A stretch of 29,532 nucleotides of DNA from positions 1-29,532 of IMG/VR virus record IMGVR_UViG_3300030389_001158; one strand, written 5' to 3'. The stretch comes from a virus. Of the stretch, positions 4,331-24,000 are shown in pieces (within the stretch, counting starts at the first letter, position 1; every line of letters begins with the position of its first letter). A model generated the notes under the pieces. The model was not told the DNA's origin. It saw only the letters and a list, made by a program, of their open reading frames with translations, and made no database searches. The position numbers and the translations under genes were made by a program.

Positions 4331-4346
4331 ATCTATTATAAGATAT
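4331..4346 (+). promoter_or_regulatory. Late-gene motif, divergent copy
   Basis: ATCTATTATAAGATAT lies in the gap after the tape measure and runs into the protease ATG at 4345. It matches the five-copy consensus except AG in place of CT in the distal half. The C is 12 bases before the A of the ATG, the same spacing as at 7661 and 22295. Function as a promoter or initiation region is inferred. Confidence 0.5.
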
Positions 4347-4974
4347 GGAGGGTAAAAAGAAAAAAAAGAAAAAAAAGAAGTATTATCAAATACATGAGTT
4401 AATTATACAGGATTCTAATGAGGATTTAGCTATTGATGCGATTAGTTTAGTATCTGAGCCAGCCATAATGGAGTCAGCAGTATTTTTTAATAAACAAAAA
4501 AACAATTTAACATTAGCAAAGAAAACAGATGAGGAGAGAGTACTAATTAGTCCAGCTCTAATCCCTAACAAAAATATCTATAGATACAATGCAGATGAGG
4601 ATTTAGACTACTATGTATATTTTAGTGAGGCGACAGTTAGGAGAGCGTCTGAGATGTTTTTAAAATACAACAAACAGCATAAAGCTACATATCAACATGA
4701 GAAGCCTATAGATGATGTATATGTTATGGAGTCATGGATAATAGAGGGAGACAAAGACAAATCCAGATATTATGGATATGACTTACCTAAAGGTACATGG
4801 ATGGTAAAAATGCGTATAAATTCAGATTTAGCCTGGAATGAGTTAAAAAGTGGTCATTTGACAGGCTTAAGTATTGAAGGATTTTTTGTCAATGCTATGC
4901 AAAAAATGTCAGAGCAAAAATACACAGATAAACAAATACTAGAAGCATTAGCAGAAATAATGAAAATCAAATAA
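4345..4974 (+). CDS. XkdF-like prohead serine protease
   Basis: A 209-residue protein resembling the XkdF family of phage maturation proteases. It has the early conserved stretch AISLVSEPAI (about 30-39), then YQHEKP (candidate catalytic His), VMESWII (acidic residue) and GLSIEGFF (candidate catalytic Ser), in the order expected for the herpesvirus/HK97-type prohead protease fold. It would process scaffold and capsid during head maturation. The gene directly precedes the scaffold-like and major capsid genes. Odd feature: residues 4-12 are nine consecutive lysines encoded by an uninterrupted A/G tract (4354-4380) with two in-frame A_AAA_AAG heptamers. The start at 4345 abuts the late-gene motif. 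Confidence 0.8.
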   Translation: MEGKKKKKKKKKYYQIHELIIQDSNEDLAIDAISLVSEPAIMESAVFFNKQKNNLTLAKKTDEERVLISPALIPNKNIYRYNADEDLDYYVYFSEATVRRASEMFLKYNKQHKATYQHEKPIDDVYVMESWIIEGDKDKSRYYGYDLPKGTWMVKMRINSDLAWNELKSGHLTGLSIEGFFVNAMQKMSEQKYTDKQILEALAEIMKIK

Positions 4975-4984
4975 TTAAAAAATA

Positions 4985-5001
4985 TTTCTATTATACTATA
5001 T
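4985..5001 (+). promoter_or_regulatory. Late-gene motif upstream of scaffold and capsid genes
   Basis: TTTCTATTATACTATAT is an exact copy of the consensus in the 43-base gap between the protease and scaffold genes. Here the ATG (5018) is 30 bases from the motif C, so a short A-rich leader would be possible. This copy precedes the most highly expressed product expected, the capsid. Promoter role is inferred. Confidence 0.6.
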
Positions 5002-5017
5002 AAAAAATACTAAAATC

Positions 5018-5761
5018 ATGGATATTAAAGAACAAATTTTGACAGCATTAGGCCTATCTGCTGAGACAGTAGACCTAGCCTATCAGGCAAAGCTTGAGGA
5101 TGGCACAATTATCGTAAGTGAGGGAGATACGCTTACTGAGGGTGGAGATGTCAGTGTATTAGCTACTGATGGCTCTACTATGAAATTACCAGCAGGAGAG
5201 TATAAGGTAGAGGATGGTACTACTTTTACTGTAGTAGAGGAGGGTATTGTAGACTCTATTACTACAACTACTGAGGAGTCTGAGGAGACTGAGGAGGTAG
5301 AAGCAGGTAAAGACAAAGAGAAAAAATATGAGGATGAGGATGCGCCAGCAGAGGCAGTAGTAGAGGAGGTAATTGATGAGGTAGGAGGAGCAGTAGCTGA
5401 GGTAGCTGAGGCTATTGATGACGCTACAGGAGATGAGATTACTCCTGAGATTGCAGAGCAGGCAGCAGAGATAGCTGTAGCTATTGTAGAGGAGAAAATT
5501 GAGGAGGTAGCAATGGCAAAACAAATTAGAGTAATTTTAGAAGCTACTAAAAAAGAATTAACATCTCTAAAATCTGAGTTAAAAGAGACTAAAGACAAAG
5601 TAAAAGAATTGTCAGACATGCCATCAGATGAGGGTATTAAATTAAATAAGTTTAGTAGTAATAATGGGATAGAGGAGTTATCTAAAGCAGAGTACAACTC
5701 ATTAACATCATCTCAGAGATTTTACTATAATTTAAAGAGAGAAAAAAATAGATTAAAATAA
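5018..5761 (+). CDS. Scaffold-like head assembly protein
   Basis: A 247-residue protein. Residues 1-78 form a beta-rich module with LEDGTII, LPAGEYKVEDG and VVEEGIV, a pattern I associate with Bacteroidota phage head proteins. Residues about 80-155 are extremely Glu/Ala/Val-rich and acidic. Residues about 160-205 are a Lys/Glu/Leu coiled coil (KKELTSLKSELKETKDKVKEL), followed by a basic tail. Position between protease and major capsid gene, an acidic disordered part and a coiled coil all fit a scaffold cleaved by the upstream protease. The large antisense frame opposite it is a by-product of the GAG/GTA codon pattern. Identity is inferred mainly from context. Confidence 0.6.
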   Translation: MDIKEQILTALGLSAETVDLAYQAKLEDGTIIVSEGDTLTEGGDVSVLATDGSTMKLPAGEYKVEDGTTFTVVEEGIVDSITTTTEESEETEEVEAGKDKEKKYEDEDAPAEAVVEEVIDEVGGAVAEVAEAIDDATGDEITPEIAEQAAEIAVAIVEEKIEEVAMAKQIRVILEATKKELTSLKSELKETKDKVKELSDMPSDEGIKLNKFSSNNGIEELSKAEYNSLTSSQRFYYNLKREKNRLK

Positions 5762-5789
5762 TATTAATAATAATTAAAAATTAAAAAAA

Positions 5790-6728
5790 ATGGGATTTGG
5801 AACAATAAACAGCAACTATACGGGTTCTCATGCGGGGCAGTATATTGCAGCGGCCTTAAAAGAGGCTAAAAGTTTAGAATATTTAACAGTATTAGAAAAT
5901 ATTAAGTTTAAGCGTAATATTACAAATGTAAGTTCTACAGGATTGATTACTGATGCTAATTGCGATTTTGTAGAGGCAGGTACATTGACGCTTAGTGAGA
6001 GAGTTTTACAGCCTGAGAATTTACAAATTAATTTAGATTTGTGTGCAATTACATTACTAGAGGATTGGCAGGCAGAAAAAATGAGAGCAGGAGCTCATAA
6101 TAATGGATTAGCTGATGACTTTGCAGCGTTTGTAGTATCTTACTTACAGGCTGCAATTGCAGACCATGTAGAGTTAAAAATATGGCAGGGTGCTAATACA
6201 GGATCAGGAGAGTTTACAGGATTTATGCATGCAGGAAACGGGCATTTCGAAAATGACTCAGCTATTATAGAGGCTACTAACTCAGATGGCTCAGGCGGTA
6301 CATCAGCAGGTACAGCATTTACAGCAACAAATATAGATGAGAATTTAGGACTTATTACAGCGGCTATACCATCTGCAGTCTATGGCAAGGAGGATTTATA
6401 TATATATCTATCTACAGCGTCATACAGACTATACATAGAAAATATGGCAGCTGCAGGATATGCTAATTTATACTCTATGACAGATACATACAAGCCTATG
6501 TATAATGGAATTAAATTAGCTGTATGTCCAGGTATGCCAGACAATAAAATGTGTGCGGCTCAAAAGTCAAATCTATTCTTTGGAACAGACCTAATATCAG
6601 ACCACGGACCAGCTCTAAGAATTTTAGACATGAGTGAGATAGATGGTAGTAATAATGTGAGAGTAGTAGCTAAATTTAGTGGAGGTACACAGCATGCTCA
6701 GGGTGGAGACATCGTAAGATTAGACTAA
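5790..6728 (+). CDS. Major capsid protein
   Basis: A 312-residue protein directly after the protease and scaffold-like genes and followed by a hairpin. It has the overall look of an HK97-fold capsid protein of flavobacterial phages: an N-terminal arm, a helix-rich section with LLEDWQAEKMRAG and a long helix ending AAIADHVELKIWQG (about 120-135), a Gly/Ser/Thr-rich loop region (about 150-175), and a C-terminal domain with YIYLSTASYRLY, YKPMYNGIKLAVCPGMP and NLFFGTDLISD. Such substrings resemble the P-domain/A-domain strands of capsid proteins. The start follows an A/T-only leader. No paralogue is present, so it is the best major head protein candidate. Confidence 0.8.
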   Translation: MGFGTINSNYTGSHAGQYIAAALKEAKSLEYLTVLENIKFKRNITNVSSTGLITDANCDFVEAGTLTLSERVLQPENLQINLDLCAITLLEDWQAEKMRAGAHNNGLADDFAAFVVSYLQAAIADHVELKIWQGANTGSGEFTGFMHAGNGHFENDSAIIEATNSDGSGGTSAGTAFTATNIDENLGLITAAIPSAVYGKEDLYIYLSTASYRLYIENMAAAGYANLYSMTDTYKPMYNGIKLAVCPGMPDNKMCAAQKSNLFFGTDLISDHGPALRILDMSEIDGSNNVRVVAKFSGGTQHAQGGDIVRLD

Positions 6729-6744
6729 TAAGAATTGTAAAAAA

Positions 6745-6765: not shown

Positions 6766-6802
6766 TAATTTACTTAATAATAACAATTAAAAATTTATAG
6801 AT

Positions 6803-7369: not shown

Positions 7370-7404
7370 TTAAATTAGTTTTTATTTATTGATTTATATA
7401 TATA

Positions 7405-7432
7405 AAAGGGAGGCTATATGCCTCCTTTTTTT
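7405..7432 (+). terminator. Strong Rho-independent terminator
   Basis: GGAGGC (7409-7414) pairs with GCCTCC (7420-7425) across a TATAT loop and is followed by seven T (7426-7432). The preceding A-run can extend the stem. This is the clearest intrinsic terminator in the genome; it closes the protease-scaffold-capsid unit after the gene ending at 7369. Confidence 0.9.
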
Positions 7433-7454
7433 GTTAAATTTAAAAACATATAAA

Positions 7455-7625: not shown

Positions 7626-7645
7626 AAAAAAATATTTACAATAAA

Positions 7646-7662
7646 TTTCTATTATACTATAT
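7646..7662 (+). promoter_or_regulatory. Late-gene motif before the structural gene at 7661
   Basis: TTTCTATTATACTATAT is an exact consensus copy. The last two bases are the AT of the ATG at 7661, and the motif C is 12 bases before that A. It lies downstream of the strong terminator, which fits a restart of transcription for the next unit (7661 to the portal and beyond). Confidence 0.6.
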
Positions 7663-8137
7663 GATACATGGAATATACGGCAGTAATATAGAGTCATACC
7701 TATCCCTATTAGAGAGTCAAATTAATGACAATGTAGCAACTACTAATTTAAGGTATTTATTTAAGTGTACTAATGACATGACTAAAGATGTCAAATATGC
7801 ATACGGCAATATATTAGAAATAAATGACAGATTTGTAAAACAAAGACTCACACATAATACTACAGACGCTGTATTAACAGGTAATATAAATTTTAAGCCC
7901 TTTGGATTTTGGACTTACGAAGTTTACGAGGTATCATGGGTAGGTACAGTAGATTTATCATCAGGCAAAGCGCCTACTACAGAGACAGAGGTATTGTCGC
8001 CAGCAGCAAATGACAAAGGGGTAGTACAGGGATTAGTACATAGAGGTAAAATTAAAATACAGGAGACTGTAGGCAGTGAGCAAATACAATATACACAGCA
8101 TACAGGAACTGAGACAAATTATTTATACACAGATTAA
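7661..8137 (+). CDS. Hypothetical virion-associated protein
   Basis: A 158-residue protein without a family I can name. It has an N-terminal helical part, then a beta-rich part with GFWTYEVYEVSW (about 87-98) and a C-terminal strand GLVHRGKIKI, a pattern recalling small structural proteins beside capsid and portal genes in flavobacterial phages. The ATG at 7661 overlaps the late-gene motif; the frame keeps reading MIHGIYGSNIES, which looks native. It is followed by another small structural candidate after 11 bases. Confidence 0.55.
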   Translation: MIHGIYGSNIESYLSLLESQINDNVATTNLRYLFKCTNDMTKDVKYAYGNILEINDRFVKQRLTHNTTDAVLTGNINFKPFGFWTYEVYEVSWVGTVDLSSGKAPTTETEVLSPAANDKGVVQGLVHRGKIKIQETVGSEQIQYTQHTGTETNYLYTD

Positions 8138-8148
8138 AATAAAAAATT

Positions 8149-13583: not shown

Positions 13584-13643
13584 TTGTTAATAACTTTTGT
13601 TAATAACTATGGTAATAATTATGTTAATATTTGTGTTAATTAA
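13584..13643 (+). repeat. Array of five degenerate 12-13 bp repeats
   Basis: Units begin at 13586 and 13599 (both GTTAATAAC), 13611 (GGTAATAAT), 13623 (GTTAATATT) and 13635 (GTTAATTAA). The first unit is a near-palindrome. The last two overlap or flank the -33 element of the early promoter, as expected of operator sites; replication iterons are the alternative. Confidence 0.7.
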
Positions 13644-13661
13644 AAATTTATTGTAGTTTTG
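13630..13661 (+). promoter_or_regulatory. Bacteroidota-type early promoter
   Basis: TTTG at 13630-13633 and TAGTTTTG at 13654-13661 match the -33 TTTG and -7 TAnnTTTG elements of the Bacteroidota primary sigma factor, 20 bases apart. Transcription would begin near 13668, giving a leader of about 20 bases before the ATG at 13689. This is the only exact match I found in a gap. Confidence 0.75.
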
Positions 13662-13688: not shown

Positions 13689-14114
13689 ATGAAAAACAAT
13701 AGTACATCATTAGGTATGTCAGATGATAGATTTAATGAATTAATGAAAGAGATTGCAATTACAGAGCGTATAGACAATAGTAATACAGATATGATAGACG
13801 CTATAGAAACTAAAAAAGAAATACAAAAAGCTATAGGCAAATTTGATGTAGACATTGTATATGATAGATTAAATATGACAGCTACTATATTTGAGAATAC
13901 TGCTAATGCTATGCGTAAATATGAGATAGAGGAGCGTAATAATTATAATGGTACTGAGGGAGATAGTAGAAACCTATACAAATCATCAGAGCGATATTAT
14001 GCAGGAGTAGCTGAGGGGTACGAAAAAGCAGCAAAAGACCTTAGAGAGGCTATGACATTTATTATAAGAAGTCAAAAGCAGGTAAATAGAATAGTTAAAA
14101 ATTTTGAGATATGA
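13689..14114 (+). CDS. Hypothetical early protein, helical
   Basis: The first gene behind the early promoter encodes 141 residues that I do not recognise. The sequence is mostly helical and charged (FNELMKEIAITER, EGYEKAAKDLREAMTFI), with no membrane segment, signal or metal site. First-position early genes in phages often act against host functions, but nothing in the sequence shows that here. ATGA overlap with the next gene, which continues the operon. Confidence 0.7.
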   Translation: MKNNSTSLGMSDDRFNELMKEIAITERIDNSNTDMIDAIETKKEIQKAIGKFDVDIVYDRLNMTATIFENTANAMRKYEIEERNNYNGTEGDSRNLYKSSERYYAGVAEGYEKAAKDLREAMTFIIRSQKQVNRIVKNFEI

Positions 14115-14449
14115 ATTGGATAGATGCTACACATAAAAGTTATGGAGATGATCCTACTGATTACAATGGACCTGAGTCTGATAATTGTGCATTTTGCGAC
14201 ATGGAGCCTAAATATGATGATTTAGCGGTATGTGAGGGATGCTATGATTATTTAGTAGAGGGAGAGGAGTACAGTTATTGCTGTACGGCTATTATAACTA
14301 ATGAGGGCCTATGTATATCATGTCTAGAGCATGCAGAGAGCTGTACTGAGGATGAGCTAGAGGGTACTAATATAGACATAAACACATACAAACTATACAC
14401 AAATAAAACTACTCAAAAACCTATAGAGGATATGAGTATGCTAGACTAG
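14111..14449 (+). CDS. Zinc-binding-like hypothetical protein
   Basis: A 112-residue acidic protein with paired cysteines: CAFC (about 27-30), CEGC (about 43-46), then CC, CISC (about 73-76) and a later single Cys. The spacing suggests one or two zinc ribbons or knuckles within a Glu/Asp/Tyr-rich frame. No known family recognised. It overlaps the previous gene (ATGA) and is followed by a hairpin before the SSB-like gene. It could be a protein-interaction or nucleic-acid-binding adaptor. Confidence 0.65.
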   Translation: MNWIDATHKSYGDDPTDYNGPESDNCAFCDMEPKYDDLAVCEGCYDYLVEGEEYSYCCTAIITNEGLCISCLEHAESCTEDELEGTNIDINTYKLYTNKTTQKPIEDMSMLD

Positions 14450-14454
14450 GTAAA

Positions 14455-14476
14455 AGATACAGCCTAAAATGTATCT
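14455..14476. other. Inverted repeat before the SSB-like gene
   Basis: AGATACA (14455-14461) and TGTATCT (14470-14476) form perfect 7-base arms around an 8-base loop. It fills the gap between two early genes and is not followed by a T-run, so it may be an operator or an mRNA hairpin that separates expression of the SSB-like gene from those upstream. Confidence 0.45.
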
Positions 14477-14496
14477 ATAATATTAAATATAATAAA

Positions 14497-14958
14497 ATGA
14501 TAAAAACAGCAAAAATTAGTAAAGTAAACAACAAAAAAGAGTGGCAAGGACCTAAGGGTACAATTATCTATCATGACCTAATTATGGATAATGGAGATAA
14601 AATCAATATAGGTAAGAAAAAAGACCAGCTAGAGGGATGGGATATTACTTATGAAATAACAGGAGATATAGGACAGCAGGAATATGTAAAAGCTAAAGCA
14701 GCACAGCCTGAGGGTGGATTTACTAAATCATTTGCAGCGCCTAAAAACAATAAACAGATTACAGAGTTAGCATGTCTAAAGGTAGCAGCAACTATATCAG
14801 CAGCTTATATAAATCAGGGGCATAAAGTAAATACAGATGATGTAATTAGATTAAAAAATGAGTTAGTAAATGACATTTTAAGATCTGAGAAACCTGTAGA
14901 AAGTCTAAAAAATGTATTAGACAATGGAGAGGTAGTAATAGATGACATGCCATTTTAA
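14497..14958 (+). CDS. SSB-like single-stranded DNA-binding protein
   Basis: A 153-residue protein whose C-terminal tip is VVIDDMPF, almost the DDDIPF tail by which bacterial SSB recruits replication and repair enzymes. The first 65 residues are beta-rich with WQGPKGTIIYHDLIMDNGDKINIGKK, plausible for an OB-fold. A helical stretch follows (about 85-135). It would coat single-stranded DNA and, through the tail, dock host replication proteins. Neighbours are the replication-initiation-like genes. The fold is inferred; the tail is seen directly. Confidence 0.7.
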   Translation: MIKTAKISKVNNKKEWQGPKGTIIYHDLIMDNGDKINIGKKKDQLEGWDITYEITGDIGQQEYVKAKAAQPEGGFTKSFAAPKNNKQITELACLKVAATISAAYINQGHKVNTDDVIRLKNELVNDILRSEKPVESLKNVLDNGEVVIDDMPF

Positions 14959-14960
14959 TT

Positions 14961-15515
14961 ATGAGAAAAACTAGACATGATAAAAATATAATTACTGATG
15001 TAGATGAGGTAGAAAAAATGGTAATAATTGCAGAGAAACTATGCAACCTACCCCCTCAGTCATTATGCCGTAGAGTGAGAACGCATGACATTTTAATGCC
15101 TAGGATGGTAGTTAGTAATATTGCTAGATATGAGAGAGAGATACATTATAGTACTATAGCAGAGGTATTAAATCATGACAGATGTAGTATATATCATTAT
15201 GAGAAAACACATGAGCAAAACTATAAGTATTGGACTGATTATAGAAATCTATTTAATGACATAGTAATATCTATATCTGACTATAAAAAATCAAATACAA
15301 TAAACAGTACTATAAAAGAAAATACAGACCTTAAAAATTATATTTTAGATAATACAACTATTAAAGAAAACAAAGCAGGCAAAGTATTTATATCTGTAAA
15401 ATTAGATGATTTACATACTGACATACAAACTAATTATAGAGATTTTAGTAGTACATTAAAAAAAATACAATACTGTATGAGCGATTATAATGCTAAAATT
15501 GATGTATCATTATGA
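14961..15515 (+). CDS. Protein with DnaA domain IV-like DNA-binding motif
   Basis: A 184-residue protein. Residues about 36-84 (RRVRTHDILMPRMVVSNIAR..., then STIAEVLNHDRCSIYHYEKTH) match the pattern of the C-terminal DnaA helix-turn-helix, including the HDR-S-I-H signature that reads DnaA boxes. No AAA+ ATPase domain is present: there are no Walker motifs, and the remaining about 100 residues are helical and unfamiliar. It probably marks the phage origin or competes at DnaA boxes, recruiting the host replisome. It lies between the SSB-like gene and a winged-helix replication protein, with an ATGA overlap downstream. Confidence 0.7.
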   Translation: MRKTRHDKNIITDVDEVEKMVIIAEKLCNLPPQSLCRRVRTHDILMPRMVVSNIARYEREIHYSTIAEVLNHDRCSIYHYEKTHEQNYKYWTDYRNLFNDIVISISDYKKSNTINSTIKENTDLKNYILDNTTIKENKAGKVFISVKLDDLHTDIQTNYRDFSSTLKKIQYCMSDYNAKIDVSL

Positions 15516-16171
15516 GAAATATACTAAGTAGTACAGCGTATTTAGTGGTAAATAAGTTTTTAGCTAGTAGAATAGGGGTAGATGCTTCTATTTTACTAGC
15601 AGACCTTATATCTAAGGAGGGATATTTTATAGACAATAATAGTTTAGTAGATGGATATTTTTTTAATACATCAGATAATATAAAAAAAGATACTACATTG
15701 TCTAAATATAAACAGAGAGAAGCTATAAAAATACTGCAAGAGCATAAATTTTTGACTACAAAACTGTCAGGCATGCCATCTAAATTACATTTTAAAATAA
15801 ATCATGATAAGATATTAAAATATTTGACTACAAGCAGTAAAAAAATTAGACAGCAAGAAGTCAAAAAAGCAGACACTAATAATAATAAAACAATAAAAAT
15901 ACAAAATAATATATCTATAAGAGATGCAAAATTTAAAGCTAAAATTTTAAGTCATAAAAATGAGTTTGCTATAGATATTTTAGAGGATTTTTATATGTAT
16001 TGGAGTGAGATAGGCGGTACTAAAATGAGATTTGAGAAACAAAAAACATTTGACATACATAGGAGACTATTAAGATGGCAAAAAAACTCTAAAAAATGGG
16101 ATAAAAAATCTACAATTAGTAATCATATAGATAGTCATAATAAAGCAAAAGACATATTAAATAATTTATGA
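15512..16171 (+). CDS. Winged-helix replication protein
   Basis: A 219-residue protein. Residues about 8-100 fit a phage replication initiator winged helix: GVDASILLADLISKEGYF, then TLSKYKQREAIKILQEHKFL as recognition-helix region and a wing with LSGMPSKLHFKI. A Lys/Asn-rich linker (about 105-135) joins a C-terminal helical domain with FYMYWSEIGGTKMRFEKQKT and RRLLRWQKNSKKW, a segment recalling DnaD/replisome organisers of Bacteroidota phages. It likely binds the origin and helps load the host helicase, as no phage helicase is present. ATGA overlaps on both sides. Confidence 0.7.
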   Translation: MRNILSSTAYLVVNKFLASRIGVDASILLADLISKEGYFIDNNSLVDGYFFNTSDNIKKDTTLSKYKQREAIKILQEHKFLTTKLSGMPSKLHFKINHDKILKYLTTSSKKIRQQEVKKADTNNNKTIKIQNNISIRDAKFKAKILSHKNEFAIDILEDFYMYWSEIGGTKMRFEKQKTFDIHRRLLRWQKNSKKWDKKSTISNHIDSHNKAKDILNNL

Positions 16172-16554
16172 AAATTAAAGATATAGAATATAAAGACCTA
16201 TGCCTAAAATGTCTAGACTTAATTAGTCATACATTAGTAGAGTTAGGGCAGCAAAAAGATACAGATTTTAAAGTAGTATTAAGTAAGAGTCTAGCTACAG
16301 ACTTATTAGAGAGTTTTGGTAATATGGAGTTTGAATCAATAGTCATGAGTTTTCGCTATGGTGTAAGAGACACAGAGGATGTAAAATTTGTACTTAATGT
16401 GCAAACCTATTTTGCCTGGATAAAAAAACATAGGCAACTAATTTGGGATAATGACACTAAAGAGCCTGAGCGTAGAGATAAGAGGTTAAAATACAGGTCT
16501 AAAAACGGCACAGGATTAAAATTAATAGGCAATCAGATTAAGTATATAAAATGA
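16168..16554 (+). CDS. Hypothetical replication-module protein
   Basis: A 128-residue, mostly helical protein I cannot name. It has MEFESIVMSFRYGVRDTED, LNVQTYFAWIKKHRQLIW and a basic C-terminus (RRDKRLKYRSKN), so nucleic-acid binding is possible. It is translationally coupled (ATGA) to the winged-helix protein before it and to the methyltransferase after it. Placement suggests a helicase-loader or initiation accessory role, but no ATPase motif is present. Confidence 0.6.
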   Translation: MKIKDIEYKDLCLKCLDLISHTLVELGQQKDTDFKVVLSKSLATDLLESFGNMEFESIVMSFRYGVRDTEDVKFVLNVQTYFAWIKKHRQLIWDNDTKEPERRDKRLKYRSKNGTGLKLIGNQIKYIK

Positions 16555-17222
16555 TTTATAATAAAGATTTTAGAGAAATTATTAAAGATTTAGACAAAAA
16601 AAATACCTTAATCATTATAGACCCTCCTTATAATGTAGGATGGAAGTATGATACATATAAAGACAATTTATCTAAAAAGGATTATAGTAGTCTATTTAAA
16701 TATTTTCAGGGATATAAATTAGTAGTAATACATTACATAGAGGATATTATAGAGTATATAGTGCCATATATGGGAGTACCTACAAAGGTAATACAATGGA
16801 TTTATAATAGTCAAATGCCTAGACAGCATAGGAGTATAGCTTTTTTTAATTGCAAACCTGATTTATCAAAAGTAAAACAGCCTTATAAAAACTTAACAGA
16901 TAAAAGAATTTTACAAAATATAAAAAATGGCAGTAAGGGAGCTAATTTATATGATTGGTGGAAAATAAATCTAGTAAAAAGTAATGCGGAGCAAAAAGAG
17001 GATTATGCTAATCAAATACCAGAGGAGGTAATAGGTAATATAATAAAGACTACAGCGGATAAAGAGTTAATTTTTGATGCATTTATGGGTACAGGTACTA
17101 CATTAGCAGTAGCGTCTAAATTAGGATACAAATATATCGGATGCGATATATCAAAAAAAGCATATAAAATTACAGAAAAAAGATTAAAAAAAATAGAAAA
17201 TAATTTATTTAATCAGTTATAA
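16551..17222 (+). CDS. DNA methyltransferase, beta-class, DPPY type
   Basis: A 223-residue enzyme with motif IV DPPYNVGW near the N-terminus (D24-Y27) and motif I FMGTGTT near the C-terminus (about 178-184), the permuted beta-class order. DPPY is typical of N6-adenine methylation. The central target-recognition region is short (about 60-150) and the whole enzyme is small. No restriction partner is present, so it probably protects phage DNA from host restriction or marks it for regulation. It is coupled by ATGA overlap to the gene upstream. The recognition sequence cannot be read from the protein. Confidence 0.9.
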   Translation: MIYNKDFREIIKDLDKKNTLIIIDPPYNVGWKYDTYKDNLSKKDYSSLFKYFQGYKLVVIHYIEDIIEYIVPYMGVPTKVIQWIYNSQMPRQHRSIAFFNCKPDLSKVKQPYKNLTDKRILQNIKNGSKGANLYDWWKINLVKSNAEQKEDYANQIPEEVIGNIIKTTADKELIFDAFMGTGTTLAVASKLGYKYIGCDISKKAYKITEKRLKKIENNLFNQL

Positions 17223-17226
17223 TATA

Positions 17227-17973
17227 ATGAATAAAAATTATATAAATGGAGTAATTAAATCATTACCAAAAAAATGGACTGATGAGGACATATCTACATT
17301 ATTATCTATGAGACAAAATAATATAAAATTTAAGGACATAGCTACAAAATTACAAAGGACTCAAACATCTGTAGAGATTAAATATAAAAGATTATGTAAA
17401 AAAAATGATACTTATAATATAAAAGACAGAAATATAAAATATAATACTAACGCAGATTTTATAAAGAGTATAAATCCTCATAGTATTTTAGATGTATATG
17501 CAGGAGGCTCATATTATAAAAATAATTACAAAGATATTAAGGTAATAGATAATGACATAAAAGGAGGTTGCGATTACAAATTAAAATCTATTGATTTACT
17601 AACTAAATTAAGGAGTAAAAAATATGATTTGATAGATTTAGATCCTTATGGTAGTGCATTTAATTGTTTTGATTTATCTATTAATATGGCTCAAAAGGGA
17701 TTGATAATAACTTTTGGAGAGTGGGGGCATCAAAGATGGAATAGGTCAGACTTTGTAAAGTATAGATACAATATAAATAAATTAGAGGATTTTAGAGATA
17801 CTAAATTTATAGATTATATAATAAATAGAGGTCTAATTTATAATAAAGAAATATCAGTATATAAAAGTATTATTTATAAAAACATATTAAGAGTATATTT
17901 TAATATAAAAACAATTAAAAAAAGTCAAAGCGGCAAAGAGTATTTTAAATCTAATCAAATTAAATTATTATGA
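17227..17973 (+). CDS. Myb/SANT-like domain fused to a Trm1-like methyltransferase
   Basis: A 248-residue protein. Residues about 14-58 (KKWTDEDISTLLSMRQNN..., FKDIATKLQRTQTSVEIKYKRL) form a Myb/SANT-like three-helix DNA-binding domain. Residues about 85-215 look like a Rossmann methyltransferase: motif I LDVYAGGS (88-95), an acidic strand end VIDND (106-110) and DLDPYGS (137-143), the motif IV form of Trm1-type tRNA guanine methylases, then LIITFGEWGHQRW. The C-terminus is basic. Without other Trm1 domains, a DNA target is likelier than tRNA. It sits between two DNA methyltransferases. Catalysis is inferred. Confidence 0.65.
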   Translation: MNKNYINGVIKSLPKKWTDEDISTLLSMRQNNIKFKDIATKLQRTQTSVEIKYKRLCKKNDTYNIKDRNIKYNTNADFIKSINPHSILDVYAGGSYYKNNYKDIKVIDNDIKGGCDYKLKSIDLLTKLRSKKYDLIDLDPYGSAFNCFDLSINMAQKGLIITFGEWGHQRWNRSDFVKYRYNINKLEDFRDTKFIDYIINRGLIYNKEISVYKSIIYKNILRVYFNIKTIKKSQSGKEYFKSNQIKLL

Positions 17974-18296
17974 AATCAAAAAACTATTTTAACACAACAA
18001 ATCAAGACAAAAACTTTGTAAAACAGAAAAAAACTAAAAACAAAAATCAAGAGCAAAAAGTATATCAGATATTTAAAAATGGAGGTAGATATACAGCGTC
18101 AGAGATATATGATTTATGGAAGGTACACTATGCTAAAAATATACCTCTTACAAGCATTAGGAGAGCTATGAGTAATTTACAATATGATAGACAAATTATA
18201 AAAACTAAGGACACAAAAATAGGTTTGTATGGAGCGCCTGAGCATTATTACAAATTATACAGACCTGTATTTGCTAACTCTACAATGTATGTTTAA
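17970..18296 (+). CDS. Winged-helix DNA-binding-like protein
   Basis: A 108-residue basic protein. After a Lys/Asn/Gln-rich N-terminal arm (1-40), residues about 41-100 suit a winged helix: KVYQIFKNGGRYTASEIYDLW, then TSIRRAMSNLQYD as recognition helix and a wing ending HYYKLYRP. Overlaps with both flanking genes (ATGA before, TAATG after) put it in the methyltransferase cassette, where it could be a specificity or regulatory partner. Could also be a small transcription regulator. Confidence 0.65.
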   Translation: MKSKNYFNTTNQDKNFVKQKKTKNKNQEQKVYQIFKNGGRYTASEIYDLWKVHYAKNIPLTSIRRAMSNLQYDRQIIKTKDTKIGLYGAPEHYYKLYRPVFANSTMYV

Positions 18297-19027
18297 TGGA
18301 GATTAATAAAATATATAATGAGAGTAATTTAGATACTATGTCTAGGATGGATGATAATTTTATAGATATGATAATTACTAGCCCTCCATATAATATAGGT
18401 AATAGTAGAGGCAATACTAATAATCCTAATGTAAACTATGATACCTATACTGATGATTTAGATACAGAGGAGTATTTTAATCAGACTAAAATATGGATAG
18501 ATGAGTGTCTAAGAGTTAGTAAACATTATGTATTTTGGAATATAGGAGAGTATGCAGGGTGTAAAGGTATAGCGGGATATATAATGTCAGAATATAAAAA
18601 ACATTTAAAAGATACTTTTATATGGATTAAAAATAATCCTAATCCTACAGGCAGAGGGGTAGTATGTAATGGATATGAATATATATTTTGTCTATGTCCT
18701 AATACAGATGACTCTATAGGTAAAAAATTTAATTATAATAACTTTGGGGATAATATGATTAAAAACTACATAATAAAACCTGTAAACAATAATAAAGATA
18801 ATGCAGGTCATGGGTACGCCTTTGGAGAGTGGCTACCTAAATATTTTATTAATTATTTTAGCAAACCTGGAGACCTAATATATGATTGTTTTATGGGTAG
18901 CGGTACTACTGCTGTAGCTGCTCATCAATTAGATAGAAATTGGATAGGTTCAGAAATCAGTAAAAAATATGTAGGTATTGCAAATAATAGATTAAGACCT
19001 ATATTAAATCAGACTAAATTATTTTAA
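18296..19027 (+). CDS. DNA methyltransferase, beta-class, SPPY type
   Basis: A 243-residue enzyme with motif IV SPPYNIG (S29-Y32 and following) and motif I FMGSGTT (about 199-205) in permuted order. SPPY is common in N4-cytosine methylases and some N6-adenine ones, so its chemistry may differ from the DPPY enzyme upstream. The segment FIWIKNNPNPTGRG and EYIFCLCPN are typical of this group. It joins the NinG-like gene by TAATG. Orphan, without a nuclease partner. Confidence 0.9.
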   Translation: MEINKIYNESNLDTMSRMDDNFIDMIITSPPYNIGNSRGNTNNPNVNYDTYTDDLDTEEYFNQTKIWIDECLRVSKHYVFWNIGEYAGCKGIAGYIMSEYKKHLKDTFIWIKNNPNPTGRGVVCNGYEYIFCLCPNTDDSIGKKFNYNNFGDNMIKNYIIKPVNNNKDNAGHGYAFGEWLPKYFINYFSKPGDLIYDCFMGSGTTAVAAHQLDRNWIGSEISKKYVGIANNRLRPILNQTKLF

Positions 19028-19437
19028 TGCCTAAAAAAAAATCAATAAGTCAATTAAAAAAACAATTAGACAAAATCTTTAGTCTATACATTAGATTAAG
19101 AGATGCGACGCCTGAGGGGTATGTAAAGTGTTTTACATGCGGTAAGGTTAGTCATTACAAAATAGGAATCCATGCAGGTCATTTTATGTCTAGGTCTAGA
19201 CTAGCAACTAGATGGCATGAGGATGGTAATGTTATGCCTCAATGCTATAGATGTAATATACATTTAAGCGGTAATCAGTATATATATAGTCTTAGATTAG
19301 ATGAAAGGTATGGAGAGGGTACAGCTAAAAAATTAGAGGAGTTATCTAGACAGCCTACAAAAATGATGAGGATAGACTATGAGGAGTTAATAGACTATTT
19401 TACTAAAAAAGTTAATAAGCTAACAAAAAGCAGTTAA
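19027..19437 (+). CDS. ninG: NinG-like recombination protein
   Basis: A 136-residue protein of the lambda NinG type: C35-x2-C38, HAGHF (H49, H52), the SRSRLATRWHE stretch and C73-x2-C76-N with LSGNQYIY. This Cys/His arrangement resembles an HNH-like zinc site. NinG (Rap) acts as a structure-specific endonuclease in lambda recombination; a similar Holliday-junction or branch role is inferred here. The gene ends the methyltransferase cassette. Its 3' end contains GTTAATAAC, the same word as in the early repeat array. Confidence 0.8.
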   Translation: MPKKKSISQLKKQLDKIFSLYIRLRDATPEGYVKCFTCGKVSHYKIGIHAGHFMSRSRLATRWHEDGNVMPQCYRCNIHLSGNQYIYSLRLDERYGEGTAKKLEELSRQPTKMMRIDYEELIDYFTKKVNKLTKSS

Positions 19438-19476
19438 TAACTAATTAACATTTTACATTATATGTGTATGTAAAAT
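19433..19476. promoter_or_regulatory. Operator-like site between ninG and the next gene
   Basis: GTTAATAAC at 19433-19441 is identical to the first two units of the array at 13586. It is followed by perfect 9-base inverted arms ATTTTACAT (19450-19458) and ATGTAAAAT (19468-19476) around a 9-base loop. There is no exact Bacteroidota -7 box here (TAATATTTG at 19479 is one base too long). A regulatory site is inferred. Confidence 0.45.
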
Positions 19477-19490
19477 ACTAATATTTGTAT

Positions 19491-19850
19491 ATGCATGTAA
19501 AACCTATATATGTAAATATACAACATGAGGTATTAATAGAGTCATTCTTAGACAATATTACAGACAATTTACGGGATTTAACAGACATACAAAAGTACAA
19601 AGATTTTATAGACATGTCATCATGGATTATAGAGTACCATAATATGTATAGCAACAATAAAAACGCAGGCAATTGGGATGACTTTCTAATGATTATACCT
19701 ATTAATTTATCATGTATGGTAAATGGATTTTTATTAGGTATAGAAAATAAAGAAAATAGAGGAGAGATTAGAATATATAGAGAGATAATAGGACAGTATA
19801 GTACAAAGCTAATTAATGATTTACAAAAAATCAGACCTATAGATGACTAA
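19491..19850 (+). CDS. Hypothetical protein upstream of sigma-like factor
   Basis: An approximately 119-residue, helical protein without a recognisable family (MHVKPIYVN at the start; IIEYHNMYSNNKNAGNWDDF and ENRGEIRIYREIIGQY later). I use the ATG at 19491 rather than the upstream in-frame TTG at 19485. It follows the operator-like site and overlaps the sigma-like gene by 8 bases, so the two are probably co-translated. It could be a partner or antagonist of that factor, but only position supports it. Confidence 0.6.
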   Translation: MHVKPIYVNIQHEVLIESFLDNITDNLRDLTDIQKYKDFIDMSSWIIEYHNMYSNNKNAGNWDDFLMIIPINLSCMVNGFLLGIENKENRGEIRIYREIIGQYSTKLINDLQKIRPIDD

Positions 19851-20400
19851 AATATATCAAATAATAGCAGATTTGAGGGATGTATATATAGGTATATCAT
19901 TACAATATACTAATAATAAGTATGAGGCAGAGGATGCTGTGTCTATGTTAATGGAGTATTTTATGTGTATGAATAAAGACACATTACAACAAATATATAA
20001 ATCTGATGGTAGAGATGGATTAATTAAATATGGAGCTGTAGCATTAAGGAGGTCATTTACTAGTCCTAGAAGCAAATTCTATTATACATATAAAAAATAT
20101 GGAAGTATAATAGATGACAGCATACAACTAGTCAGAGATAATGATAATACTAGAGATATAAACAATATATTATACATTACAGATGACTCTGATCCTACAT
20201 GGGTATATTTTGAAAAATTAGACAAAGCATTAGACTCTATGTATTGGTATGATAGGGATGTATATAAGTTATACTACAATGTAGAAAAAAAAGAGACATT
20301 AGATAGTTTAGCTAAAAAAACTAAAATAAGTAGGAGTAGCCTATTTACAACTATAAACAATGTAAAAATAAAACTAAAAGAGATATTATCTGATGAGTAA
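19843..20400 (+). CDS. Sigma-70-like transcription factor
   Basis: A 185-residue protein with a region 2-like helix at the N-terminus (NKYEAEDAVSMLMEYF, about 25-40) and a region 4-like helix-turn-helix at the C-terminus (ETLDSLAKKTKISRSSLFTTINNVKIKL). The linker is acidic and variable. This layout matches phage-encoded ECF-type sigma-like proteins of Bacteroidota phages. It would redirect host RNA polymerase, and the five late-gene motifs are the obvious candidate targets. Overlaps with both neighbours are 8 bases. Region 2 is weaker than in textbook sigma factors. Confidence 0.7.
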   Translation: MTKIYQIIADLRDVYIGISLQYTNNKYEAEDAVSMLMEYFMCMNKDTLQQIYKSDGRDGLIKYGAVALRRSFTSPRSKFYYTYKKYGSIIDDSIQLVRDNDNTRDINNILYITDDSDPTWVYFEKLDKALDSMYWYDRDVYKLYYNVEKKETLDSLAKKTKISRSSLFTTINNVKIKLKEILSDE

Positions 20401-20803
20401 TTTTTTTGTAGATAGTGAGACATTTAATTTTAGATTTAACACATGTAGAGCGTGTGAGTATTTTTTTAGTCCTACAGCGTCATGTAAAGTGTGTAAATGT
20501 TTTATGCGTGTAAAGTGCTCAATTTCTCAAATGCAGTGTCCTAAAGACAAATGGATGTCTGTAGGTAGTAAACTTAATAGAGATAACATACCACAATATT
20601 TAATAGATGAGGTACTTAGTTTAGAGACACAAATAAAGTCTAAACAATTAAAAGACTTAGACAGTAAAGTAAAGGCTATAGAGTTATACAACGCTATATA
20701 TAGCGGAGGGTATAAGACTAATACTAGCTGTCCTAGCTGTCTAAAAGAGATACACAATGGACTAATAAATATAATAAATAAGTATGGCAAAGACAATACA
20801 TAG
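20393..20803 (+). CDS. Zinc-ribbon-like protein (DUF6171-like N-terminus)
   Basis: A 136-residue protein with a dense Cys block: CRAC (about 18-21), CKVCKCFM (about 32-39) and MQCPKDKW (about 49-56), a pattern I associate with DUF6171-type phage proteins. A helical middle follows and then NTSCPSCLKEIHNGL (about 114-128), a second Cys pair in a short C-terminal module. Zinc binding is likely; the function is unknown. It overlaps the sigma-like gene by 8 bases and the next tiny gene by 20 bases. Confidence 0.65.
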   Translation: MSNFFVDSETFNFRFNTCRACEYFFSPTASCKVCKCFMRVKCSISQMQCPKDKWMSVGSKLNRDNIPQYLIDEVLSLETQIKSKQLKDLDSKVKAIELYNAIYSGGYKTNTSCPSCLKEIHNGLINIINKYGKDNT

Positions 20804-20906
20804 ACATATAACAAAACAGAGAAAAAAAAGACCTGGAGTACATAGTAAAAACGCAAGTAGAGGACAAAATGGATATAAAAAAAAATATAGAGGTCAGGGC
20901 AGATAA
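20784..20906 (+). CDS. Tiny Arg/Lys-rich conserved protein
   Basis: A 40-residue, highly basic protein ending KKYRGQGR and containing KKRPGVHSKNASR. I recall close relatives of this short protein in many flavobacterial phages, where it is conserved but unassigned. It begins 20 bases before the end of the preceding gene and ends 38 bases inside the next gene, so three genes are nested here. Its charge suggests nucleic-acid or ribosome binding. Confidence 0.7.
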   Translation: MAKTIHRHITKQRKKRPGVHSKNASRGQNGYKKKYRGQGR

Positions 20907-21237
20907 ACATGATTCATATTGGGAAACTGACAGAAATTTAGACAATGCAAAACAAATGAATAAAATAAATCCTAAAATGTTATTGACAAAAGAGGAGTTA
21001 GGTATATTAGATGTACCAGAATATTACAAAGGACATAACAATTACACAGCTAGAGAGGTATGCGATAATTTTGATTTGTCATATCATATAGCTACAGCTA
21101 CTACATATCTTATTAGAGCAGGTAAAAAAACAGAGGCGGGTATGACTATATTTGAGAAAAAAATAGAGGACTTACAAAAGGCTATACATCATTTACAATT
21201 TGAAATAGAGAAAACAATTAAAAACAATAAATTATGA
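20869..21237 (+). CDS. DUF3310/SaV-like nucleotide kinase-related protein
   Basis: A 122-residue protein. Its second half shows the DUF3310 signature: EYYKGHNNYTAREVCDNFDL, then YHIATATTYLIRAGKKTE and a C-terminal helix with LQKAIHHLQFEIE. The family is common in phages and is often annotated as SaV-like or a nucleotide kinase, though its activity is not well established. The first 45 residues are basic and charged and may be a separate arm. Nested start inside the preceding tiny gene; ATGA overlap with the next. Confidence 0.75.
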   Translation: MDIKKNIEVRADKHDSYWETDRNLDNAKQMNKINPKMLLTKEELGILDVPEYYKGHNNYTAREVCDNFDLSYHIATATTYLIRAGKKTEAGMTIFEKKIEDLQKAIHHLQFEIEKTIKNNKL

Positions 21238-21440
21238 AAATAAACACATACGCATATTATAAGTCATTACACATTTTACCATCATTGTCTATAGAGTGGC
21301 GTAATGTAGTCAGAAAAGGTAAATTTTGTGCATTATGGATAGAGTTTATATTTTTGTTTTGGACTATAGAGATATACTTATGGGAGTTAGATGATGAGAC
21401 AGTAATAAAGGAGATGCATAAACATATCAACAATGACTAA
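21234..21440 (+). CDS. Small membrane protein
   Basis: A 68-residue protein with one probable membrane helix (about 32-51, CALWIEFIFLFWTIEIYLWE) after a basic stretch (RNVVRKGK), predicting an N-in orientation. The tail is acidic then His/Asn-rich. No family recognised. Overlaps of 4 and 8 bases with its neighbours keep it in the early operon. Possible roles include superinfection exclusion, but nothing proves it. Confidence 0.6.
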   Translation: MKINTYAYYKSLHILPSLSIEWRNVVRKGKFCALWIEFIFLFWTIEIYLWELDDETVIKEMHKHINND

Positions 21441-21618
21441 TAATTGGAGACAGGCAGGTAGAAAAACAAAAAAATACTATTACAAACCTAGTATTATTAA
21501 AAATGGTAAATTAGTAATACCTGAGATAATTAGAGAGGACTATGGATTTGAGATGCAATTTGGTATAGAGGAGAGACATTTGACTAGAGAGGAGATATAT
21601 TTAAAAAACAAAAAATGA
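21433..21618 (+). CDS. Small hypothetical protein
   Basis: A 61-residue, basic, soluble protein (MTNNWRQAGRKTKKYYYKP...), with VIPEIIREDYGFEMQFGIEE in the middle and a charged end. No family recognised. Coupled to both neighbours by short overlaps, which supports real translation. Confidence 0.55.
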   Translation: MTNNWRQAGRKTKKYYYKPSIIKNGKLVIPEIIREDYGFEMQFGIEERHLTREEIYLKNKK

Positions 21619-21692
21619 CATACATAATAACATTAGGAGTAGGTATAGCTGTAGGTATGTATATAGCGACACAAATAGACAAAAAAATATGA
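21615..21692 (+). CDS. 25-residue single-span membrane peptide
   Basis: Peptide MTYIITLGVGIAVGMYIATQ plus a short charged tail. It is essentially one membrane helix with small-residue GxxxG-like spacing (GVGIAVG), which favours helix pairing. Both ends overlap neighbouring genes by 4 bases in the ATGA arrangement, so it is likely a real micro-gene. Confidence 0.5.
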   Translation: MTYIITLGVGIAVGMYIATQIDKKI

Positions 21693-21814
21693 TAGAGTTT
21701 TTTAGACATTTATTTGGATTTTGCGGGGAGCCACATCCTAATATATTTACTATAATACTAGGTACTCCTACAATAGGGTACATTATATACAAAATAAAGA
21801 AATATAAAAAATGA
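21689..21814 (+). CDS. 41-residue membrane-associated peptide
   Basis: A short protein with a first part FFRHLFGFCGEPHPN and a hydrophobic segment (about 19-34, IFTIILGTPTIGYIIY) ending in five lysine-rich residues. ATGA overlaps on both sides. It follows another one-span peptide, so the pair may work together in the envelope. No family recognised. Confidence 0.5.
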   Translation: MIEFFRHLFGFCGEPHPNIFTIILGTPTIGYIIYKIKKYKK

Positions 21815-22050
21815 GATTTGTATGTAATATATGCGGTAATACATGTAATTTGTATAGAGTAAAATTTACATCAGTAAATAATAAATTAGTATGTAAAGAT
21901 GCGTACTGCTGTGAGGAGTATATGGAGCAGGTAATTACAGATGAGTATAAGGGGATACCTGACATACATAGAGACGCAGATGATACTCAGCATAGTAATC
22001 CTTTAAAGGTATGGGATAAATTTAAGTCAGACTATGCAGAGAAGCCATAA
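21811..22050 (+). CDS. Small zinc-ribbon-like protein
   Basis: A 79-residue protein with C5-x2-C8 (CNIC) and C12 at the N-terminus and C28 and CC (YCCEEY) further on, suggesting a small zinc ribbon. The second half is acidic and rich in Asp/His (HRDADDTQHSN), perhaps a binding tail. Unknown function. It overlaps the next gene by 17 bases. Confidence 0.6.
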   Translation: MRFVCNICGNTCNLYRVKFTSVNNKLVCKDAYCCEEYMEQVITDEYKGIPDIHRDADDTQHSNPLKVWDKFKSDYAEKP

Positions 22051-22276
22051 ACAAAATAATTACTATTGGAAATGTATAGTAAAAATATTAGGATCAGAGT
22101 TAGGTTATTATCCTCATGAGATACATGCATTACTAAAAAGGGAGTTTATGGTAGATGATACAAAGACAATGGAGAGAGGAGAGTTTAATGATTATATAGA
22201 GCAGATAAGGATATGGAGTCAAACAGAGTTAGGTATATTATTACCTACTCCTGAGGACTTAAAAAATAAAATGTAA
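22034..22276 (+). CDS. NinB-like recombination protein (short)
   Basis: An 80-residue protein with HKQNNYYWKCIVKILGSELGY, then EIHALLKREFM, GEFNDYIEQIRIWSQTELGI and LPTPEDL. This sequence pattern is that of short phage proteins related to NinB/Orf-type recombination mediators, which bind single-stranded DNA. It has no catalytic site, as expected. It closes the early block immediately before the packaging genes, and is shorter than lambda NinB, so it could be the core domain only. Confidence 0.6.
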   Translation: MQRSHKQNNYYWKCIVKILGSELGYYPHEIHALLKREFMVDDTKTMERGEFNDYIEQIRIWSQTELGILLPTPEDLKNKM

Positions 22277-22280
22277 AAAA

Positions 22281-22296
22281 ATCTATTATACTATAT
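22281..22296 (+). promoter_or_regulatory. Late-gene motif before the terminase genes
   Basis: ATCTATTATACTATAT lies in the 18-base gap before the small terminase and its last two bases are part of the ATG at 22295. The motif C (22283) is 12 bases before the ATG, as at 4345 and 7661. It would open the late transcription unit. Confidence 0.6.
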
Positions 22297-22654
22297 GAGT
22301 ATAGACAAAAGTAGGCATATAAAAAAGGAGAGCATGCTAGCAGCATTAGAGGCTAGTTTAGGGGTAGTATCTGCTGCATGTCATGAGGCAAAGATACCTA
22401 GAGCTACATATTATAAGTGGCTAAAAGAGGATGAGGATTTTAGACAAAAGGTAGAGGACATTAATAATATAGCATTAGACTTTGTAGAGTCATCATTACA
22501 TAAACAGATAGCAAGTCATAATACATCAGCTACAATATTTTATTTAAAATGTAAAGGTAAACACAGAGGGTATGTAGAGAGGTCAGAGTTAGACATTACT
22601 AGTCAAAATGAGCCAGTAAAAATAGACATTAAAATAGATGGGATTGACTATTAG
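22295..22654 (+). CDS. terS: Terminase small subunit
   Basis: A 119-residue protein with an N-terminal helix-turn-helix (about 12-48: LGVVSAACHEAKIPRATYYKWLKEDEDF quoted in part as AACHEAKIPRATYYKWL), a helical core and a C-terminal segment TIFYLKCKGKHRGYVERSEL that is typical of phage small terminases. It recognises phage DNA for packaging and hands it to the large subunit, whose gene overlaps it by 17 bases. The start at 22295 is tied to the late-gene motif; the next in-frame ATG is codon 14 and would remove only a basic arm. Confidence 0.85.
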   Translation: MSIDKSRHIKKESMLAALEASLGVVSAACHEAKIPRATYYKWLKEDEDFRQKVEDINNIALDFVESSLHKQIASHNTSATIFYLKCKGKHRGYVERSELDITSQNEPVKIDIKIDGIDY

Positions 22655-23957
22655 TCCTACATTTACTAATAAACAAAAAATAGCTTTAAAGTATTTATTT
22701 GATAAAAATACTAATGAGATTTTGTATGGAGGTAGTGCAGGTGGAGGTAAATCATTTTTAGGATGTGCATACTTACTAATGATGTCATTAAAATATCCAG
22801 GTACTAGACATCTAATGGGTAGGTCTAAATTAGACTCACTAAAAAAAACTACATTAAATACATTTTTTGAGGTGTGTAAATTATGGGGTATAGAAAGTAA
22901 AACACATTACAACTATAATGCACAGTCAAATATAATTACATTTTTTAACAGCTCAGAGATTATATTAAAGGACATGTTTGCGTATCCATCAGACCGCAAT
23001 TTTGACAGTCTAGGAAGTTATGAGCTAACCTCCTCATTTTTAGATGAAGCAAACCAGATAACAGAGAGAGCTAAAATGGTATTAATGTCTAGACTGAGAT
23101 ACAAACTAGATGAGTATAATTTAACTCCTACATTATTGATGACATGTAATCCGAGTAAGGGATGGCTATATACTAATTACTACAAACCAGCAAAGGAGGG
23201 TACTATAAGAAACAATAGAGTATTTATACAAAGTCTAGTAGATGACAATAAATATATATCTAAACATTACAAAACTAATTTAGAGTCATTAGATGAGATT
23301 AGTAAACAGAGACTATTATATGGTAATTGGGAGTATGATAGTACAAAGGATAGTCTAATACATTATGACAATATAGTAGGTCTATTTAGTAATCAGGGTA
23401 TAGAGGGAGACAGGTATATATCTGCTGATATTAGTAGATATGGAGATGATAAAACTGTTATATGTTTATGGTATGGTATGCATATAGACAAAATTATTAC
23501 TATAAATAAATCATCATTAACAGAGGTAGCAGATAAAATAAAAGAGCTACAGAGAGAGTATGATGTATATACTAGAAATATAGTTATTGATGAGGATGGT
23601 ATAGGTAGTGGGGTAGTAGACATGATTAAGGGATGTAGAGGATTTATTAATGGTAGTAGATGTCTAAACAAAGAAAATTACCAAAACCTAAAAACACAAT
23701 GCTACTACTATATGTCTGACTATATAAATAAAGGACATGTAGGTATATCTACAAATGACATAAAAGTAAAAAACGATATAATACAGGAATTAGAACAGGT
23801 CAGAAGTTATAATATTGATAAGGATGGCAAATTACAAATAATACCTAAGCCACAAATTAAAGATATTATAGGCAGGTCGCCTGACTATGCTGATGCAATA
23901 ATGATGAGATTTTACTTTGCTATAGACGCTAACTATGGTAGGTATTATGTGTATTAA
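22638..23957 (+). CDS. terL: Terminase large subunit
   Basis: A 439-residue packaging motor. The ATPase has Walker A GGSAGGGKS (31-39), Walker B SSFLDEA with D136/E137 and the coupling-type stretch MTCNPSKGWLY. The nuclease half has ISADISRYGDDKT (about 255), VIDEDGIGSGVVD and the terminal acidic SPDYADAIMMR, giving the expected Asp triad of the RNase H-like fold. Length and motif order match the family. It cuts DNA and pumps it into the prohead through the portal. Confidence 0.95.
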   Translation: MGLTISPTFTNKQKIALKYLFDKNTNEILYGGSAGGGKSFLGCAYLLMMSLKYPGTRHLMGRSKLDSLKKTTLNTFFEVCKLWGIESKTHYNYNAQSNIITFFNSSEIILKDMFAYPSDRNFDSLGSYELTSSFLDEANQITERAKMVLMSRLRYKLDEYNLTPTLLMTCNPSKGWLYTNYYKPAKEGTIRNNRVFIQSLVDDNKYISKHYKTNLESLDEISKQRLLYGNWEYDSTKDSLIHYDNIVGLFSNQGIEGDRYISADISRYGDDKTVICLWYGMHIDKIITINKSSLTEVADKIKELQREYDVYTRNIVIDEDGIGSGVVDMIKGCRGFINGSRCLNKENYQNLKTQCYYYMSDYINKGHVGISTNDIKVKNDIIQELEQVRSYNIDKDGKLQIIPKPQIKDIIGRSPDYADAIMMRFYFAIDANYGRYYVY

Positions 23958-23983
23958 TACAATTCTAAACTAAAATATTAATT

Positions 23984-24000
23984 TTTCTATTATACTATAT
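23984..24000 (+). promoter_or_regulatory. Late-gene motif before the tail chaperone
   Basis: TTTCTATTATACTATAT is an exact consensus copy in the 43-base gap after the large terminase. The ATG (24001) is immediately downstream, 14 bases from the motif C. Confidence 0.6.

Follow-up and report, generated by a model that had tools for sequence, protein, structure and literature searches.

In bacteriophage T4, late promoters are recognized with the help of gp55, a phage late σ factor; they have an AT-rich −10 element, lack a −35 element and require the sliding clamp. The phiEco32-like Salmonella phage 7-11 encodes the late σ factor SaPh711_gp47, which has bipartite promoters of the form GTAAtg-16-aCTA at several late operons (PMC8948821). 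For the gp36 σ factor of phiEco32 itself, the same source describes the AT-rich sequence tAATGTAtA in front of middle and late genes, with transcription starting 6–8 bp downstream (PMC8948821). That this is a single element without a −35 counterpart is explained by the lack of region 4 homology in gp36.

Promoters that abut start codons are known from cellular genes, where a −10 element located about 10–12 nt before the start codon gives rise to leaderless mRNA, both as a motif adjacent to ORFs in the Deinococcus-Thermus group and in TA-led genes (PMC12340547; PMC3160421). According to a review, most middle and late mRNAs of the Thermus phage phiYS40 are leaderless as well, and this phage shifts the levels of IF2 and IF3 (PMC3594737). 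In F. johnsoniae, a distance of 4–5 nt was mapped between the host −7 element and the transcription start, and 87% of the predicted leaders are longer than 10 nt (PMC6847099).

Here we describe five putative late promoters, three of them fused to the start codon, in the complete 29,532-nucleotide stretch of IMG/VR virus record IMGVR_UViG_3300030389_001158 (hereafter the window). The definition of a gp55-type promoter (TATAAATA as −10, no −35) is not met by these sites because they carry a −35-like element, and this element together with a σ-like protein that includes a region 4 also distinguishes the window phage from phiEco32.

Results

The first and the last 98 bases of the window are identical, which suggests a circular and complete virus genome. 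The closest terminases are those of Flavobacterium phage 11b and Cellulophaga phage phi10:1, and a perfect host-type promoter with the Bacteroidota −33/−7 consensus, TTG-N20-TAGTTTTG, is present at positions 13631–13661 of the + strand; from these two observations we infer a host belonging to the Bacteroidota. The host is probably marine. The promoter at 13631–13661 heads an early operon (13689–22276) and is the sole complete intergenic host-type promoter that was found in the window. Host-type sites are also carried by the near relative G001.

The 15-mer TCTATTATACTATAT occurs as four exact copies on the + strand (4987–5001, 7648–7662, 22282–22296 and 23986–24000), compared with none in 100 dinucleotide shuffles, and a divergent fifth copy with two mismatches, TCTATTATAAGATAT, is located at 4332–4346. 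When up to three mismatches were allowed the motif was not enriched in the window (14 matches versus 17.9 expected), so that it is the exact or near-exact copies, together with where they are located, that carry the signal. Each of the five occupies a short gap 5′ of a late gene. The C of the motif precedes the A of the ATG by 12 bases at 4345, 7661 and 22295, by 14 at 24001 and by 30 at 5018, and CTATTATA is present within 14 nt 5′ of 4 out of 42 start codons versus 2 out of 760 other ATGs. A previous sequence-only reading of this DNA had reported the same coordinates and distances, and also the four exact copies with a divergent fifth; its spans of 16–17 bp take in T/A flanks of the 15-mer. 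Its statement that no copy resembles the host TAnnTTTG promoter was borne out, since none of the five copies matches this consensus. The fusion of the motif with the ATG, which it had likewise noted for three of the sites, holds there; as a correction, leaders of 18 nt at 5018 and 2 nt at 24001 are predicted for the other two.

Homologous positions in relatives, i.e. viral contigs related by terminase or capsid protein (mostly with 53–99% of terminase or 60–86% of capsid sequence shared), are occupied by CTATTATA or close variants. An alignment of 52 distinct sites from five gene contexts in these relatives displays a (T)CTATTATA core at −13 to −5, which reads (T/C)C(T/C)(A)TTATA, followed by a T at −1 and a near-invariant A at +1, 4 nt past the core; in most aligned sites this base is also the first of the ATG. 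A second element, [AC]AA[AC]TA[AT], is located at a fixed spacing further upstream (−32 to −26) so that the core begins 13 nt after its invariant TA. Within this element, A at −31, A at −30, T at −28 and A at −27 are each conserved to 90–100% in the 52 sites. The −35-like element, which is absent from the sequence-only reading, frequently extends into the end of the preceding gene, and part of its conservation could be of coding origin.

In the window, the fuller two-part pattern matches exactly five sites on the + strand and none on the − strand. P4345 (4313–4346, + strand) consists of the −35-like sequence AAAATAT (4313–4319) and the −10-like sequence TCTATTATA (4332–4340), with a predicted +1 A at 4345 that is the A of the ATG of a head maturation protease gene (4345–4974, + strand; Peptidase_S78_2, Pfam PF14550). 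The same arrangement is present in relatives L097 and L101. P5018 (4968–5001, +) combines CAAATAA (4968–4974) with TCTATTATA (4987–4995) and a predicted +1 A at 5000, which leaves an 18-nt A-rich leader before the ATG at 5018 (+ strand) of a scaffold-like protein gene that is followed by the major capsid gene; a leader at this promoter is kept in the scaffold orthologues of relatives. P7661 (7629–7662, +), with AAAATAT at 7629–7635 and TCTATTATA at 7648–7656, has its predicted +1 A at 7661, again the A of the ATG, and precedes a conserved late gene of unknown function (7661–8137, +) with a predicted leaderless start. P22295 (22263–22296, +; AAAATAA at 22263–22269, TCTATTATA at 22282–22290) places the predicted +1 A at 22295 on the A of the ATG of the terminase small subunit gene (22295–22654, +). 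Finally, P24001 (23967–24003, +; AAACTAA at 23967–23973, TCTATTATA at 23986–23994) has a predicted +1 A at 23999 and hence a 2-nt leader to the ATG at 24001 of a gene weakly assigned as coding for a tail-assembly-chaperone-like protein (24001–24654, +).

In a held-out test with 68 σ-related loci that did not overlap with the training loci, the two-part pattern was found 51 times on the + strand and 8 times on the − strand, as compared with 0–3 matches in shuffles. The controls used initially in this test were probably richer in G+C, and AT-rich controls weigh more. Although spacers of 13–15 were permitted, all 51 + strand matches had a spacer of 13, and 33 of them were located exactly 4 nt from an ATG. 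A weight matrix trained on one gene's orthologues had been discarded in favour of the two-part pattern because a scan of both strands with it gave noisy minus-strand matches, this strand being T-rich. The strand bias bears on the idea that the motif is an operator or a packaging or replication site which lies before late genes by chance. A weak palindrome, CTAT-TAT-ATAG, in some relatives would fit such a site, yet the orientation of the motif is fixed toward the gene, and neither the constant distance to the −35-like element nor the +1 A is expected of an operator. We consider this idea barely credible.

Among 64 distinct two-part sites the +1 position is A in 62 and G in two, and it is part of an ATG in 43. 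At leadered sites, which belong to scaffold genes with the ATG 13–40 nt away, an A was found 5 nt after the core in 15 of 15 cases and was preceded by T in 13 of these; leadered sites of the held-out set had A at +1 in 13 of 14 cases. Persistence of the A at such a distance from the ATG implies that the start codon is not the cause of its conservation. The +1 A is thus conserved in its own right, as one would expect of an initiating nucleotide.

Of 21 distinct orthologues of the gene at 7661, 16 have the core C[TC][ATC]TTATA, which in 15 cases is spaced exactly 4 nt from the ATG, and the remaining orthologues have recognizable variants of the core. Control genes from 17 families, among them those for capsid, portal and terminase large subunit, almost lack the core, which was detected in a total of six sequences and never at a distance of 8 nt or less from the ATG. 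Only some of the relatives have the promoter in front of their protease and terminase genes. In the listed orthologues with fused starts an in-frame stop is located 6–93 nt upstream, and an alternative start (TTG) further upstream exists in only two. The protein encoded at 7661 is conserved from N-terminal residue 2 onward, and the window offers no other start codon upstream of it. Given these stops, the scarcity of alternative starts and the conserved N-terminus, the fused start codons are secure.

An intrinsic terminator, AGGGAGGCTATATGCCTCCT-TTTTTT (7400–7433, + strand; dG −12.8), is located upstream of P7661, and nine relatives have a strong intrinsic terminator whose end lies immediately 5′ to the −35-like element of the orthologous gene. 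Genes of the 7661 type downstream of such terminators thus need a new transcription start. This argues against the alternative considered in the sequence-only reading, namely that the motif is a translation initiation or mRNA processing signal within long late transcripts. One might favour an RNA-level signal on the grounds that most motif copies are fused to a start codon and that ribosomes of the host phylum do not use Shine-Dalgarno sequences (PMC6847099). However, such a signal does not account for a second upstream element that is conserved at a fixed distance across different genes and would not be contained in an RNA that starts at the motif, nor for leadered copies that retain the same +1 A at 13–40 nt from scaffold starts. 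It is also at odds with the absence of the motif from capsid, portal and other control genes and with its covariation with a σ-like protein (see below). We therefore regard an RNA-level function as very unlikely.

A candidate for the factor reading these promoters is encoded in the early operon (19843–20400, + strand). Its product is predicted to consist of a σ2 domain (residues ~1–86), a disordered linker (87–116) and a σ4 domain (~118–182), and it thereby shows the domain composition of ECF (group 4) σ factors, which possess only σ2 and σ4 joined by a linker. Only weak σ matches were obtained with an initial structure model based on nine sequences, and the fold was resolved with an alignment of 20 sequences (mean pLDDT 75; two helical domains plus disordered linker). 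The relative orientation of the domains in the model is uncertain. The top Foldseek matches were all σ factors, the best being the ECF factor SigL (6dv9 chain F; E 8.6e-4), and the C-terminal domain superimposed on region 4 of E. coli σE with 2.1 Å over 69 residues (Z 9.9). For helical proteins a Z of 9.9 is modest on its own, and it is the uniform identity of the Foldseek matches that carries weight.

At the sequence level, the 19843 protein by itself gave weak family matches only, all below Pfam cut-offs, and a search of solved-structure sequences with it found no σ factor. Within a set of 20 homologues, 10 matched a PHROG σ family, 10 matched Sigma70_r4 (weakly; best 4.6e-4) and three matched Sigma70_r2 (weakly); the 19843 protein itself had no match to either Sigma70 profile. 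A homologue was detected in 17 of the 21 relatives, and at least 572 loci of the phage group encode such a σ factor. A tblastn search against phage isolates gave no match, so that no cultured relative with this system was found, and a search of genome contigs yielded only two matches, each in the metagenome bin of an unlikely host. We conclude that the modelled protein has an ECF-like fold and is a phage σ factor, an assignment based on its fold, on family matches and on covariation in the absence of binding data.

Covariation became apparent in relatives with strongly diverged σ factors, which have other motifs in the same place: CTATTTAA, TATATTTACTAT, TATATTTTATA-GT-ATG, TATATTTAT or CCCATTACTA. 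Contig G013, whose capsid protein is 69% and whose σ factor is 32% identical to that of the window, carries the TATATTTAC motif; G010 (capsid 60%, σ factor 49%) carries CTATTATA. In Mantel tests the distance between motifs correlated with that between σ factors (r 0.59), also when capsid distance was taken into account (partial r 0.56, p 4e-4), whereas the correlation of motif with capsid given σ was not significant. The correlation was further confined to region 2 (0.44 given region 4, p 0.002; 0.03 for region 4 given region 2). These tests are based on n = 14–15 related genomes and on motif strings that were partly compiled by hand. Within these limits, the −10 sequence follows region 2 of the σ factor and not the capsid protein across relatives.

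It is conceivable that the promoters are read via an alternative σ factor of the host or another phage activator and that the 19843 protein acts elsewhere, because binding data are lacking and the assignment as σ factor relies on fold, family matches and covariation. Such a model would have to accommodate that the motif changes with region 2 of the phage protein beyond what is predicted by capsid or terminase phylogeny. Moreover, it is absent where a 19843-type protein is absent: in the σ-less phages 11b and phi10:1 and in contig G018, no such sites were present in AT-rich DNA. We consider involvement of another factor unlikely. The link between motif and 19843 protein that was suggested by the sequence-only reading thus gains strong comparative support.

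Discussion

Our data are best explained by a phage σ factor that redirects the RNA polymerase of the host to late promoters yielding leaderless mRNAs, a model to which we assign a probability of about 0.88 and for which no RNA or binding data exist. Early in infection, the primary σ factor of the host would read the TAnnTTTG promoter at 13631–13661 and thereby drive expression of the early operon that encodes the ECF-like σ factor. The latter is then proposed to bring the core enzyme of the host to five late promoters of the bipartite form [AC]AA[AC]TA[AT]-N12-TCTATTATA-N4-A(+1), with region 4 binding the upstream element and region 2 binding TCTATTATA. Bipartite pattern, spacing, positions, +1 A, upstream terminators and covariation can be read from the aligned genomes; binding of the σ factor, the temporal order and initiation at the +1 A are inferred. 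Transcripts are predicted to start at the AUG (4345, 7661, 22295) or 2 nt before it (24001), and the first gene of these four late transcripts would be translated from a leaderless mRNA or one with a 2-nt leader, which is likewise an inference. Only the scaffold/capsid promoter would retain a leader, which, as a matter of speculation, may suit high expression. Promoters giving rise to leaderless or near-leaderless mRNAs had been postulated previously for this DNA; comparative evidence strongly favours this, and at the RNA level nothing has been shown.

Of the criteria for late promoters of the phiEco32/7-11 kind, those that can be read from sequence and predicted structure are satisfied, namely a protein with σ fold, a repeated non-host consensus and a fixed −35/−10 spacing. 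As in phage 7-11, a phage σ factor would act with the host core enzyme on bipartite late promoters while early genes are served by host promoters (PMC8948821). The consensus sequences are, however, unrelated, and the host of 7-11 is enterobacterial. Neither fusion with start codons nor leaderless late mRNAs are reported for 7-11 in the part of the source at hand (PMC8948821).

The window motif also fulfils the sequence criterion for leaderless genes, a −10 element about 10–12 nt before a secure start codon. While the leaderless genes of Deinococcus-Thermus and the TA-led genes are cellular and depend on the housekeeping σ factor and a TANNNT element, the window features a phage σ factor, a CTATTATA core and a −35-like element at fixed distance. 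Leaderless late mRNAs would be shared with phiYS40, which is a Thermus phage and for which the review draws no link to an ECF-like phage σ factor (PMC3594737). With an element at about −12 to −5 followed by 4 nt, the gap in the window motif equals the geometry of the −7 element of F. johnsoniae (PMC6847099). Each kind of component is therefore known. The combination of an ECF-like phage σ factor, a bipartite promoter and start-codon fusion in an uncultivated group was not found described, and no description of this promoter system was found in open-licence papers.

We consider it probable that evolution within a large uncultivated group of phages has produced a late-promoter code that makes the start codon part of the initiation site, resulting in leaderless late mRNAs in a phylum with mostly leadered transcripts, and that σ region 2 and the −10 element have coevolved into several specificities. 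The early-to-late switch of a widespread, apparently marine group of uncultivated phages would thereby become readable, with start sites predicted to the base, and it would follow that leaderless mRNAs of phages are translated by ribosomes of Bacteroidota. The naturally occurring series of σ factors and promoters (CTATTATA, CCTTTATA, CTATTTAA, TATATTTAC, TATATTTTATA, CCCATTAC) would allow direct tests of the specificity code of region 2, and such pairs could supply orthogonal expression parts for Bacteroidota.

The termini of the window are identical over 98 bases (1-98 and 29434-29531), and the contig is therefore probably a complete genome, circular or circularly permuted, despite a last ORF that looks truncated. 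Two of its genes, at 16551-17222 and 18296-19027, read like DNA methyltransferases, an assignment that rests on DPPYN and SPPYN motifs recognized by eye, without a family search.

Several start codons of the window (4345, 6803, 11272, 14111 and 25319) are directly preceded by AGAT or GAT, as in AGATATG, which is perhaps a separate start-codon context of its own. Within the sigma factor gene (19843-20400, plus strand), TCTATTATACATATA is present at 20078-20092 without a matching -35 element; this copy, which codes for the conserved FYYxYKK stretch of the protein, may be a chance occurrence.

Among the relatives, L226 and L227 carry the bin labels Pseudooceanicola and Euryarchaeota and look like phage contigs placed in the bin of the wrong organism. 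Contig G018 (loci L219 and L220) is related via its terminase. Because it lacks the sigma factor and host-type TAnnTTTG elements precede several of its genes, dependence of this relative on a host sigma factor is suggested.
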